Origin: Archaeoglobaceae archaeon
Lineage (GTDB): Archaea; Halobacteriota; Archaeoglobi; Archaeoglobales; Archaeoglobaceae
Direction: 5' to 3'
Length of the DNA: 64,000 bases
Assembly (NCBI GenBank): GCA_027036775.1
Contig: JALWDS010000047.1
Span: forward strand, 1-64,000
In this document: positions 1-5,187 of the stretch, in pieces
Position numbering within the stretch: position 1 is the first letter of the stretch
How the letters are laid out: each line of letters opens with the position of its first letter
Made by a program: the position numbers and the translations under genes
The notes under the pieces: generated by a model
The model's database searches: none
Told to the model about the DNA's origin: nothing
Seen by the model: the letters and a program-made list of their open reading frames with translations, nothing else

Positions 1-1631
1 CTACCGTTTATGACAGCTATATACGGATCGGAATCGAACTTCAGGTAAGGGGCTATCGTTTTTACCCTATCCACCACGTTCCTGTGAATCATAATTCTGC
101 TGTTCTCCGTTACGTATCTGCTCAGTATCAGATTGATGTCCCCGAACCTTAAAGCGAACAGAAACCTCCTAAATCCGTCGAGCTTAACCCCTCCCGTTCC
201 GTTGTATTTCGTAAATACGTTTCTCTCCCCCAACGGATAGTCGAACTCCTTAAGCTTCGTATCTACGACGACGTAACCGTTCGTTAGTTCTCCGTAGTAA
301 ATCCTCGGCTCCTTTATCTCTATCTTCCCCTTCGGAGGTATGTCCTTAACTATGAAGTCTGGCAAACCCTCCCTCGAGACTGCGTTGACTGGGGAAACGA
401 CAACTCCGTAACCGTGCGTGTAAACGAGGTGTTCGTTGACCCAAGTTTTCGCCCTTAAGGGTAAAAGATCGGTTGAGAGTTCCCTCGCGGATATCATGAC
501 CTCGGTGTAGTTTCCGTCTATGTTGTATCTATCGACGTCAACGTCGTTTATGAAGTAGTAAGTTCTGATCTGCTGTAACTGTCTGTAAACGTCTAAAAGC
601 GGTCTGTGATCCCAAATCCTAACGTTTTTAATCGTTGCACTGTGTTTTTTCAACTTCTCGTAGCTCAGATCGTATTTGACCTCGTAGGGATACTCCCTAA
701 CTTTGTCTATTCCGAACGCAAACCTCGTGTATCTTATGCTGTAATTTATGTAGTTCCACTCCATCTGAAGCTCGTTCGGCTCGACCTTGAGCTTTTGAAC
801 TGTGAATGGGATGAGACCGAGAACCAAGGTCAGAAATACCAGATACACGCCGAACAGAATAAGGAACTTCTCGAAACTCCTAAACCTAATGCAAGCGAAA
901 CCGAAACCGAACGAAACTATCGAAGTTAGCAACAGGGCTGGCATCAGGACGTTCACCTCAACCCAGCTCGCACCGCTCACTACCCCGTGTTGGGAAAATA
1001 GGAGCTCGAACCTCGACAGATAAAAGTAAATCCCCGCCAAGAAGAAGATCAGGGCAAAGAGAATCGAGATGTGAAGGTAACCGAGCTCTGGAAACAGCTC
1101 CTTAAACTCCTCCCAAGTCCTAACCCACCTGAAGTGGTAGAGGTAGTATATTATGGATATCAAGAAGCAGAAAAGTATAGAGACTGCAAACATTTGGAGT
1201 AGAGTTTCGTAGAACGGTAGTTTAAAAACGAAAAAGGAAACGTCGTAACCGAATATCGGATCGGTAACGTTGAAGTTCGTGGAGTTAACGAAGTAAACCA
1301 GCTTCAACCAGCCCTGAGAGAATGCGTAGGCTATTATGAGAGATATAAGGACATCTATCTCGTGAAAGTATCTAATCTCGTCTCCCAAAAACTCCGCCAC
1401 CGCCTTCTTTATTGCAAATGCGTTTAGAGTTAGAATTGAGAGGGAAACTGCGAAAGCTATCATGAAGGTTGCAATCTGATACTTCAGCATCTCCAAGTAT
1501 GCGAAACCGTAGTTGATGGATGAGAACCAGAGATACTCGGTGTAAACGTTTACGAGAACATCCGTCAGTATCAAATCGACCAACGTGAACGTGAGGAGCA
1601 TTATTACCCTCTTCGGTGTGAGCATAGGCAT
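1..1631 (-). CDS. UPF0182 family membrane protein (C-terminus cut by window edge)
   Basis: This is a partial gene that starts at ATG 1631 and runs off the left edge with at least 543 codons. I translated it by hand. The first ~280 residues hold several hydrophobic segments, and the rest is a soluble domain. The soluble part carries runs I recognise from UPF0182 (COG1615), including IWDHRPLLDVYRQLQQIRTY, DVDVDRYNIDG, WVNEHLVYTHGYGVV and GLPDFIVKDIPP. The molecular function of the family is unknown. Its stop codon lies outside the window. The upstream permease gene ends 15 bp before this start on the same strand, so the two are probably co-transcribed. Family assignment is confident; any functional link to the neighbouring ABC exporter is only context. 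Confidence 0.85.
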   Translation of the reverse strand, partial: MPMLTPKRVIMLLTFTLVDLILTDVLVNVYTEYLWFSSINYGFAYLEMLKYQIATFMIAFAVSLSILTLNAFAIKKAVAEFLGDEIRYFHEIDVLISLIIAYAFSQGWLKLVYFVNSTNFNVTDPIFGYDVSFFVFKLPFYETLLQMFAVSILFCFLISIIYYLYHFRWVRTWEEFKELFPELGYLHISILFALIFFLAGIYFYLSRFELLFSQHGVVSGASWVEVNVLMPALLLTSIVSFGFGFACIRFRSFEKFLILFGVYLVFLTLVLGLIPFTVQKLKVEPNELQMEWNYINYSIRYTRFAFGIDKVREYPYEVKYDLSYEKLKKHSATIKNVRIWDHRPLLDVYRQLQQIRTYYFINDVDVDRYNIDGNYTEVMISARELSTDLLPLRAKTWVNEHLVYTHGYGVVVSPVNAVSREGLPDFIVKDIPPKGKIEIKEPRIYYGELTNGYVVVDTKLKEFDYPLGERNVFTKYNGTGGVKLDGFRRFLFALRFGDINLILSRYVTENSRIMIHRNVVDRVKTIAPYLKFDSDPYIAVING

Positions 1632-1646: not shown

Positions 1647-2666
1647 CTATAAACTTTTGGTTATCCTACCCTTCACGATCAAACAGGACGTTGTGAGCAT
1701 AATGAGATCGACGACACCGAATGCGATTGCAAACGTTAAACAGTCGTCTAAGATTCCAAGAGATAACCTTACGGAGAGACTGAGGGGAGACGGTGTGAAT
1801 GTTAGAAAGGAGAGTATTAAAGGAATGAATAAAAGAGAATAGATGAGATGTGCCTGCTCCCTGCTTTCGGAAAATCCGAACACCATCATCGCAATCGATG
1901 ACGAGAGGATGCAGAACGTGAGTGAGGGAAAAACGCTTGCAATCGATACATTTACACCGTTCGCAACGAAACCCAATATCCAAACGAGTGTAAGCATCAG
2001 AGATACCGTAAAGACCGCGACGATCTTACCGATCACGACATCCTTCACACCTACGCTCGTCAGCAAAACTTCCGAAGTCTTCAGTTCCTCGTAGAGGACG
2101 TCTATCGTGTATATCCCCACTATTATCCCGCAAAGAACGACTACTGTCGGAATTAGAACGACGTAGATGAATCTGAACTTAAGCGAAATTCCCTCTGGAA
2201 CGCTTATGGGTCTTCCTTCCGTATCGTATGACCTAACGTTTAAAACGGGTATCCCGTTCAACTCCCTCAAAACGGTTTGATACTCCTCGAAAACCCTTTT
2301 GAGGTAGGGTATAACCCTTATGGACTTCACCTCCTCCTTCGGCACGTAAACCTCGACGTAGTTGACGCCCTTAGGATTCTCGTTCAAAACTACGACCGCA
2401 TCGACGTATCCCTTTCTCAAACCGTTTAAAGCGGAACTAAGATTCTCGAACCTCATGGGATTTGCAACTCTTTCAAAAATCGGTGCGTTTCCAACCAAAC
2501 CTATCCTCGCTTTGAATTCGAAGCTGGGATTGTATAGGAATACGAGTCCGGTTGCGACTATTTGGGAGAGGGAAGATAAAGCTACGAGCAGTAGTAACGT
2601 CAAGACAACAGTCTTCTCCCTAAACAAGGACTTCAAATCCTTTTTTGCTATAACGAGAGAAGCCAC
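1647..2666 (-). CDS. ABC-2 type transporter permease
   Basis: This is a membrane permease of about 339 residues with one N-terminal transmembrane segment, a ~120-residue extracytoplasmic domain and about five to six C-terminal hydrophobic helices, which is the NatB-like ABC-2 layout. I placed the start at GTG 2666 (VASLVIAKKDL) because a GGGGTGAT ribosome-binding sequence precedes it. A longer in-frame start at 2732 would overlap the upstream gene by 85 bp. With the chosen start the overlap is 19 bp, which suggests translational coupling. It probably works with the divergently encoded ATPase at 4249 and the larger permease upstream. The substrate cannot be inferred. Confidence 0.8.
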   Translation of the reverse strand: MASLVIAKKDLKSLFREKTVVLTLLLLVALSSLSQIVATGLVFLYNPSFEFKARIGLVGNAPIFERVANPMRFENLSSALNGLRKGYVDAVVVLNENPKGVNYVEVYVPKEEVKSIRVIPYLKRVFEEYQTVLRELNGIPVLNVRSYDTEGRPISVPEGISLKFRFIYVVLIPTVVVLCGIIVGIYTIDVLYEELKTSEVLLTSVGVKDVVIGKIVAVFTVSLMLTLVWILGFVANGVNVSIASVFPSLTFCILSSSIAMMVFGFSESREQAHLIYSLLFIPLILSFLTFTPSPLSLSVRLSLGILDDCLTFAIAFGVVDLIMLTTSCLIVKGRITKSL

Positions 2667-4210
2667 AGCATCACCCCGTTGTAAATCGCGTGAAATGTTG
2701 AAGATGTTAACACGCCTAACTTGAATCCCCATCTCATCGTGAGAACGAATACCGTCGTAGCGGTGACGTGTGCGAGTAGAGGTAGAACGAAAAGAACAGT
2801 AAGTCTAAGGGGTATAAGCGGGATTAAAATCAACTTCTCCCCCAAAAAGAACGCGAAGGCGGATAGGAAGGCGGAGATGTAGGGGTTCAACCTATCTCTG
2901 GAGGAGTAAACGAAAAGACCTTTGAAGAACTCCTCGACGATTGCTAGAGACATCAGGACGGGGAAGACGTATGATCGTATCGGATACAAAACGGCAAGTG
3001 CAAAGATCTCGAAGAGCAGGACGAAGGGTATGGATGCAATCGTAAAGACGAAAACCTTGTAGTATCTGTCCGTGAGCTTCGAGGTCAACTGTATGAGCTT
3101 GTCCGTTAATCCACGATGGTGCATGAACTCGAAAGAATTCGACGTTAGGTATAGGAGGGTAAGGGATATTAGGGAAACGTGAATTATGGATAGGGGCAAA
3201 TATATCCCTACCTTCTCCCCCTCCATGATGTTGATTAGAACGGTTACGGGCGAAAGTCCGCTCATAGGGACGAAGCTGAAAACTGCGGGTATGAACAGAT
3301 AGGCTGTGATCAGTAGAGTTACCACTATCGAAATGAACGACATCTCCTTGTAACTTCTGCTGAGAAAGACTACGAAGGCATCTAACGACAACATCAGAAG
3401 TAGGATGGACAAGAGCAAACAGACCATTACGATGCTGTGAAATAGGATGGATATAGCGAAGGAAACGAAGAATCCCAAGATCAAGTAAGGAGTCATCTTT
3501 CCAAGAATTAAGTCTCTGTTGGATAAAACGGTGAGTAACACCTCAAACCTCCCGCGGACCTTATCCTCCATGAATGATGATGAGAACGTCTGAGCTATGA
3601 AGTAGAGAGGCATTACGAATATGAAGGCGTAGAAAAACTTTTCAAAGAGAATAGGGGGCTTCAAGGCATCTGGAGTTATGTATTCACTTCTTTTAACCTC
3701 AACCACTTTTTCTAAAGGTTTCCCCACCGTCACATTAACATTTTCCTTCACGGTCCTTACGACCTCTTTCCCCTCTCTTTCAACAGGTTTCGTCACGCTT
3801 GTAGGCTTTACAACCCTCTCTGATCCAATTTCAACTTTTACGGGTTTAGTTGGAACTTTTATCAACTTTACCAAAACGGGAAATGCTCTCTCACCGAACT
3901 TCTCGTAAATCCATCTGTTATACTCCATCTTCAAGTAGCTTCTAAACTCGTCAAATGCGGAGTATCCTTTCAAATCGCCTCTTACGTAAACCGCATTACG
4001 ATAGATGATTATGTCGGGATTTTCGGAGATTTTGAAGGGTCTGTAATCGACCGGGACGTTTGTTGAGTATATGCCTTTGTCTATCGCTATACCGTTTGTG
4101 ACCAATTTATAAAAGAGGAGGACTGAAAGAATTAGAGAAATCAGGGCTATCAATCCAACCCTTTTCGATCCCCTTTTGATCCTGATTTCCCTTCTCGCAA
4201 TCTCAATCAT
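2648..4210 (-). CDS. ABC-2 permease fused to a PrsW-like intramembrane protease domain
   Basis: This 520-residue membrane protein has two parts. Residues ~1-370 look like an ABC-2/NatB permease: one N-terminal helix, a lysine/valine-rich extracytoplasmic region to about residue 175, then a helix cluster containing FSSSFMEDKVRGRFEVLL, typical of these permeases. Residues ~385-520 carry motifs of the PrsW glutamic-type membrane protease family: EEFFKG (E426, E427), FFLGE (E458), AHVTAT (H481) and FHAIYN (H507, N511), all within hydrophobic helices. The gene starts at ATG 4210, and the divergent ATPase begins only ~40 bp away. Related permease-CPBP protease fusions are known; the EExxK form here points to PrsW rather than CPBP. 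Protease activity is inferred from motifs only. Confidence 0.75.
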   Translation of the reverse strand: MIEIARREIRIKRGSKRVGLIALISLILSVLLFYKLVTNGIAIDKGIYSTNVPVDYRPFKISENPDIIIYRNAVYVRGDLKGYSAFDEFRSYLKMEYNRWIYEKFGERAFPVLVKLIKVPTKPVKVEIGSERVVKPTSVTKPVEREGKEVVRTVKENVNVTVGKPLEKVVEVKRSEYITPDALKPPILFEKFFYAFIFVMPLYFIAQTFSSSFMEDKVRGRFEVLLTVLSNRDLILGKMTPYLILGFFVSFAISILFHSIVMVCLLLSILLLMLSLDAFVVFLSRSYKEMSFISIVVTLLITAYLFIPAVFSFVPMSGLSPVTVLINIMEGEKVGIYLPLSIIHVSLISLTLLYLTSNSFEFMHHRGLTDKLIQLTSKLTDRYYKVFVFTIASIPFVLLFEIFALAVLYPIRSYVFPVLMSLAIVEEFFKGLFVYSSRDRLNPYISAFLSAFAFFLGEKLILIPLIPLRLTVLFVLPLLAHVTATTVFVLTMRWGFKLGVLTSSTFHAIYNGVMLWLLSL

Positions 4211-4236: not shown

Positions 4237-4248
4237 TAAAGATTGTTC

Positions 4249-5031
4249 GTGCTCGTGGTTAGAGACCTCACGAAGAGATACGGTGATTTCGTTGCACTGA
4301 AGGGGGTGAGCTTCGAAGTCAGAAGGGGTGAGGTGGTTGGACTTATAGGTGAGAATGGAGCGGGAAAGAGCACGACCATAAAGATTGTTGTCGGACTTCT
4401 TACGCCGACATCTGGAAGCGTGGAGTTCGATGGTATGGATTTCTTTAGGAACAGAGAAAAGCTGAAGAGAAAGATAGGTTACGTTCCAGAGACGGATTCC
4501 CTTTACGAGGACATGAAAGCGGAAGAGTTCTTGAAGTTCTTCGCAAGCCTATACAAGGTCAAGTTCGACAGAAGACTGATGGACGTTCTCAAAATTCCGA
4601 ACAAGACGATAGCGGAGATGTCAAAGGGTATGAAGAGAAAGCTCTCCATTGCGAGGTCTCTTATTCACGATCCAGACTATCTGATCTACGACGAACCTTT
4701 CAGTGGACTCGACCCTACAATTTCCATAGCTTTAGCGGACTTTCTTAAAGGGTTGAGGGATAAGGCAATACTCTTCTCCGCCCACAACCTCTACTACGTT
4801 GAATACCTTTGCGATAGGGTTGTGATAATGAAGTCTGGAAGAGTTATCTACGAGGGAAGCGTTGAGGAGGTAAGGGGGCTTAAAACCTACATCGTTAAAA
4901 CGGAAAACGGTGTTGTAAGGACTAACGATGTGGATAAACTGATTGAGATTTTGAAGAGCGAGAGGGTTTTAGGATTGGACGTTGAGGTTAGAAGGTTGGA
5001 GGATCTATACTTCGAACTGATTAGAAGGTGA
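4249..5031 (+). CDS. ABC transporter ATP-binding protein (NatA-like)
   Basis: This is a ~260-residue cytoplasmic ATPase that would power the adjacent ABC-2 permeases. Visible motifs are Walker A GENGAGKST, a signature-like MSKGMKRKLSIARSL, Walker B YLIYDEPFSGLDP and the H-loop FSAHN. The signature is degenerate (MSKGM rather than LSGGQ), which is common in this subfamily. Possible starts are TTG 4243, GTG 4249 and GTG 4255. I prefer 4249 because it begins right where a transcript from the TTAAATA box would start. The stop codon abuts the convergent rpl40e stop. The C-terminal ~60 residues form a short regulatory extension. Substrate unknown. Confidence 0.88.
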   Translation: MLVVRDLTKRYGDFVALKGVSFEVRRGEVVGLIGENGAGKSTTIKIVVGLLTPTSGSVEFDGMDFFRNREKLKRKIGYVPETDSLYEDMKAEEFLKFFASLYKVKFDRRLMDVLKIPNKTIAEMSKGMKRKLSIARSLIHDPDYLIYDEPFSGLDPTISIALADFLKGLRDKAILFSAHNLYYVEYLCDRVVIMKSGRVIYEGSVEEVRGLKTYIVKTENGVVRTNDVDKLIEILKSERVLGLDVEVRRLEDLYFELIRR

Positions 5032-5187
5032 TCACTTCCTCTTACCCTTCCTCTCTTTGGATTTTGGCCTTAAACCCTTGTATCCGCACTTCCTACATCT
5101 CGTAGCTCTGATCGGATTCCTCGCGTTGCACCGCATGCATATCTTGACGTTGAATAACCTTGCTTCCGCTTCAGGAAACCTTGCCAT
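5032..5187 (-). CDS. rpl40e: Large ribosomal subunit protein L40e
   Basis: This 51-residue protein beginning [12 protein letters not shown] is a standard archaeal L40e, with a zinc ribbon of two CxxC pairs (CMRC and CRKC) and a basic tail ending [10 protein letters not shown]. An in-frame extension to 5256 exists but is not part of the family, so ATG 5187 is the start. It is the last gene of a minus-strand ribosome-biogenesis operon, 85 bp after nep1. Its stop codon abuts the convergent ATPase stop. Confidence 0.95.

Follow-up and report, generated by a model that had tools for sequence, protein, structure and literature searches.

What is the role of a membrane protein in which an ABC-2 permease is continued, within the same chain, by a PrsW-like and thus putatively proteolytic domain? 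The question is raised by an open reading frame on the minus strand (2648..4210) of the 64,000-nucleotide stretch of archaeal DNA analysed here as a whole and referred to as the window, which belongs to a genome of 1.53 Mb in 48 contigs. The frame starts with ATG, contains no internal stop and encodes 520 residues, as stated in the sequence-only reading that had first drawn attention to it. Our analysis establishes the fusion itself, the invariance of its predicted active-site residues and the conserved three-gene module to which it belongs.

Anatomy and motifs of the fusion protein

Based on 53 aligned homologues and an AlphaFold2 model, the protein very probably consists of an ABC-2 half-permease (residues ~1-370) followed by a C-terminal PrsW-like domain (residues ~373-520). 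The permease part (residues 1-372; 3095..4210, minus strand) was delimited by PF12698 matches in homologues, by a profile match to the neighbouring permease and by the helices of the model. In the latter, it is composed of an N-terminal helix, TM1 (16-39), an exterior region (40-187) and TM2 to TM6 (188-357), with a coupling helix predicted at residues 221-225. The corresponding profile, PF12698 or ABC2_membrane_3, matched 26 of 38 fusion homologues at E-values up to 1, the best being 1.6e-16. The PrsW-like domain (residues 373-520; 2651..3094, minus strand) is placed after the sixth permease helix and comprises five predicted membrane helices. It was recognized from PF13367 matches in homologues, from hhalign alignments to stand-alone PrsW proteins and from a model of the isolated domain. 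The full-length model has a mean pLDDT of 75.7 and is poorly predicted over residues 108-185 of the exterior region; the isolated domain was modelled with a pLDDT of 94.0 and a pTM of 0.87, its core helices spanning residues 415-436, 443-465, 468-494 and 496-519.

The four motifs noticed in the sequence-only reading lie exactly at the residues it had given, i.e. E426-E427-F-F-K430, F454-F-L-G-E458, H481 and H507-A-I-Y510-N511. Among 53 aligned homologues spanning many archaeal families, E426, E427, K430, F454, E458, K459, P477, H481, H507 and Y510 are 100% conserved (53/53), position 511 being occupied by N (40 sequences) or D (13 sequences). The EExxK motif, situated within the model helix 415-436, and the FxxxE motif (F454xxxE458), which hhalign puts in register with FATVEN of stand-alone PrsW, are present in all 53. 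The predicted catalytic residues are also invariant in a separate set of 26 sequences. Given the number of homologues and the many archaeal families from which they come, this invariance goes beyond chance. H481, the extra histidine, and H507xxxN/D511 in the last helix are both traits of PrsW. The CPBP motifs EExxxR and FxxxH are not found; EExxK and FxxxE stand there instead.

Whether these residues face each other inside the membrane had been suggested as a check, and was assessed by helix register rather than by distance. Counted from one and the same membrane face, E426, E427, H481 and H507 lie at a depth of 11-13 residues and E458 at about 7. The register of all five is compatible, as far as the models go, with a single active-site layer.

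The same residues bear on the idea that the domain is a pseudo-protease, which would support the permease structurally or regulate it within the membrane. It would agree with the fact that no activity is recorded for the family and that the window protein has no library match. However, the intramembrane acidic, lysine and histidine residues are invariant in 53/53 homologues over deep divergence, whereas pseudo-enzymes usually lose some of their catalytic residues. Motifs kept invariant over such divergence favour function rather than decay; a pseudo-protease seems quite unlikely.

Assignment to the PrsW branch

PrsW proteins can be told apart from CAAX proteases by EExxK and the additional histidine (PMC4602095), and the EExxK/FxxxE form had already led to the PrsW branch being proposed for this domain. 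The PrsW profile PF13367 exceeded its curated cut-off at 18 of the 19 fused loci with coordinates matched to the homologue search, the best score being 38.6 bits (locus L054 of genome G143). With hhalign, the fused domains aligned to stand-alone archaeal PrsW with a probability of 94.9 and an E-value of 4.6e-8, the four motifs being in register, versus a probability of 11 and an E-value of 2.7e-3 for CPBP. The E-value to PrsW was 3.9e-6 for the Archaeoglobi subset alone and 2.3e-3 for the genus subset, which is too thin at three sequences. Controls performed with the reversed domains, the permease half and the second permease gave E-values of 0.12 to 0.43, the reversed one being at 0.12. The CPBP profile PF02517 was searched in 60 genomes and none of its matches was a fusion locus. 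A CPBP identity was rejected on the basis of motifs, PF02517 search and hhalign, and the profile evidence supports membership of the PrsW branch. The proposal of an ABC-2 permease and a PrsW-branch domain joined in one chain is thus corroborated by PF13367 on the homologues, by hhalign and by motif conservation.

A profile search, suggested as a check for the window protein, gave a divided answer. A number of its homologues match PF13367, but the window protein itself retrieved neither PrsW nor CPBP, nor any other family, from Pfam or NCBIfam even at an E-value of 10. As its own sequence falls below threshold in every library, its assignment to PrsW rests on its family. The full-length L054 protein returned no family with hmmscan, and its isolated C-terminal piece (L054:7099-7614) matched PF13367 with 37.2 bits and an E-value of 2.8e-9. 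Full-length scans can miss the protease domain in this way, probably, as we infer, owing to a composition filter that is triggered by the long hydrophobic protein. Databases present the fusion as a transporter only; in RefSeq, the Haladaptatus homologue WP_227356692.1 is named 'ABC transporter permease subunit'.

Structural comparisons were performed with both models. In a viral structure library, the top three matches of the isolated domain were CAAX proteases (probability 0.85-0.90, E-values 0.2-0.8); the same domain retrieved no solved CAAX protease and nothing useful from the PDB. The full-length fold search returned weak ABC-2 matches only, e.g. NosY, and a search by sequence for solved relatives produced no credible one. 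These fold matches below significance (E >0.1), together with the missing PF13367 match in full-length hmmscan, could be taken to mean that the likeness to PrsW is accidental, the domain being a stretch of hydrophobic helices in which some residues happen to resemble the motifs. This is largely refuted by the curated PF13367 matches over cut-off and by a profile-profile match in which all four motifs line up while the controls stay flat, and is highly improbable.

Compared to the PrsW family (PF13367; MEROPS M82 as cited in PMC9263693), the fused domains present EExxK, FxxxE, the next-helix histidine and the last-helix HxxxN/D in the same order and register (motifs as described in PMC4602095). 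They differ in sitting behind an ABC-2 permease and in having five predicted helices instead of the eight of most PrsW proteins (PMC3482391). Stand-alone archaeal PrsW proteins, e.g. HVO_0408 from Haloferax volcanii, belong to the same protease family and the same phylum. They are devoid of a permease part, their consensus reads EN in the second motif where the fusion has GEK, and they reach up to 160 bits with PF13367 versus about 19-39 bits for the fused domains. Fusions of permeases with CPBP proteases were already known, as the sequence-only reading noted: the curated family NF041647 (ABC_perm_CPBP, ABC transporter permease subunit/CPBP intramembrane protease) likewise unites an ABC-2 permease and a C-terminal CAAX-superfamily protease in one chain. 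Its protease half is nevertheless CPBP and does not match the PrsW-like domain of the fusion, and what its permease half matches in these loci is not the fusion but the separately encoded second permease. Its 435-bit cut-off was reached by no fusion locus in 19 genomes (0/19).

The three-gene module and its proposed mechanism

The gene on the 3' side of the fusion encodes a second ABC-2 half-permease (1647..2666, minus strand; PF12698, E-value 1.1e-10), whose profile matches that of the permease half of the fusion at an E-value of 1.1e-12, indicating homology. The listed frame (1647-2732) begins at ATG 2732, but the gene probably starts at GTG 2666 and would then encode 339 residues; this start is preferred because the two genes would then overlap by 19 bases, as they do in locus L032. 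A DrrA/NatA-like ATPase of 262 residues (4243..5031, plus strand; PF00005, E-value 5.3e-32) is encoded divergently in this genome. Convergent with the ATPase gene, a short frame (5035-5187, minus strand) codes for a 51-residue four-cysteine zinc-ribbon-like protein that by eye resembles ribosomal protein L40e.

The second permease adjoins the fusion in 65/66 loci and the ATPase is linked to it in most. In haloarchaea, ATPase, fusion and permease follow one another in this order on one strand; the ATPase is divergent in Archaeoglobi and several other families. In the lineages of loci L037, L038, L046 and L056 it is non-adjacent and a clear orthologue is found elsewhere in the genome: in the five genomes tested, the unlinked ATPase is a distinct best orthologue with 47-54% identity, the next paralogue having at most 41%. 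The DrrA/NatA-like ATPase, the fusion and the second ABC-2 permease are therefore a conserved trio which, with its ABC-2 domain, partner permease and ATPase either linked or elsewhere in the genome, has the composition of an ABC-2 (type V) exporter.

The fusion gene had been described as lying in an operon with the second permease and a UPF0182 gene, divergent from the ATPase. All three genes are arranged in this way: the UPF0182 gene (1..1631, minus strand, clipped by the window edge; PF03699, E-value 4.8e-169) is co-directional and starts 15 bases past the permeases. It was found next to the module only in the three genus members covered, however, and was not retained as a partner of the system. 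In one methanogen-like locus, a gene for an MscS-type mechanosensitive channel (L051:8429-9238) is inserted between the divergent ATPase and the fusion; it was not considered a general member of the module. No fourth gene or substrate gene was found to be conserved beside the module across families.

The best explanation overall, to which we give a probability of about 0.5, is a heterodimeric ABC-2 (type V) exporter with intramembrane cutting and extrusion of the product. The ATPase would power a permease pair formed by the fusion protein and the second permease. A peptide or protein bound to the membrane would be cut by the PrsW-like domain about halfway through the bilayer, after which the permease pair would take up and expel the cleavage product in an ATP-driven manner. 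What we infer here is that the domain is catalytic, that cutting precedes transport, and what kind of substrate is handled. That proteolysis and export would be coupled in one complex stands, in our estimate, slightly below even odds. Export coupled to intramembrane cutting is favoured by the likeness to SagE and SagGHI of the streptolysin S cluster, in which a CAAX-type protease works with a dedicated ABC exporter (PMC4513790). SagE and SagGHI are separate proteins acting with a dedicated peptide precursor, in contrast with the single chain of the fusion, which has no precursor gene near.

A signalling role could also be envisaged for a domain of the PrsW branch, as PrsW of Bacillus carries out the site-1 cleavage of the anti-sigma factor RsiW (PMC9263693, PMC4602095). 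The fused domain would then be a site-1 protease whose target is a regulator anchored in the membrane; on sensing a cue, e.g. a peptide, the ABC transporter would turn the protease on. Such a regulator is not conserved beside the module. Moreover, sigma factor/anti-sigma pairs of the RsiW type are, to our knowledge, absent from archaea, so that a different target would be needed there. We regard transport-gated signalling as rather unlikely.

Distribution, descent and significance

The putative cutting exporter is not the feature of one genome as which the fusion had been treated. In a sample of 394 genomes from one archaeal phylum, fusion homologues were found in 203 genomes, including 191 of the 322 near-complete ones; an initial contig search with the window protein as single query had given no matches. 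They range from Archaeoglobi to Halorussus, Halorubrum and Halobiforma, and are found in many further families in the phylum. Open frames of >500 residues hold nearly all listed matches, which means that the C-terminal domain is generally there; none of the matches listed showed the fusion split in two. A tree built from 38 members agrees with the taxonomy in its main clades, and families cluster; Archaeoglobi, with one f7 member beside them, are separated from the rest with support 100/100. Judging by this tree, the fusion is an ancient family of the phylum with apparently largely vertical descent. Archaeosortase A (TIGR04125) was considered as a linked function and rejected. It is present in 322/322 near-complete genomes and, being universal, makes its co-occurrence with the fusion uninformative; an obligate role of the fusion in archaeosortase processing is unlikely.

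Descent also bears on a possible role in self-protection. ABC-2 pumps are tied to peptide and drug export, and antimicrobial peptides entering the membrane might be destroyed or pumped out by the complex, with the protease as its peptide-degrading immunity part. CAAX-type proteases are indeed tied to bacteriocin immunity or processing (PMC9298176). Yet the module tracks taxonomy, unlike patchy immunity genes, and its surroundings contain no conserved gene for a toxin or halocin, which makes this role unlikely.

A literature search found no paper on a permease-PrsW fusion, and a survey of archaeal fusions reports many ABC-2 composites and no protease among them (PMC11237513). The permease-CPBP fusion was already known; the literature search gave no account of the PrsW-type fusion, of its largely vertical spread across the phylum or of the constant three-gene context.

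If the exporter with intramembrane cutting is retained as the preferred reading, we tentatively suggest that the fusion may be an ancient archaeal machine joining ATP-driven extrusion and intramembrane proteolysis in one polypeptide, e.g. for cutting and then clearing or exporting membrane-embedded peptides, and that it has escaped notice because its protease domain is not picked up when profiles are run on the full-length protein. Should the domain be active, fused membrane protease domains would constitute a blind spot of standard annotation, and about half of the phylum's sampled genomes would carry an exporter with a protease wired in. As haloarchaea are genetically amenable, they would then provide a tractable system for the coupling of transport and intramembrane cutting.
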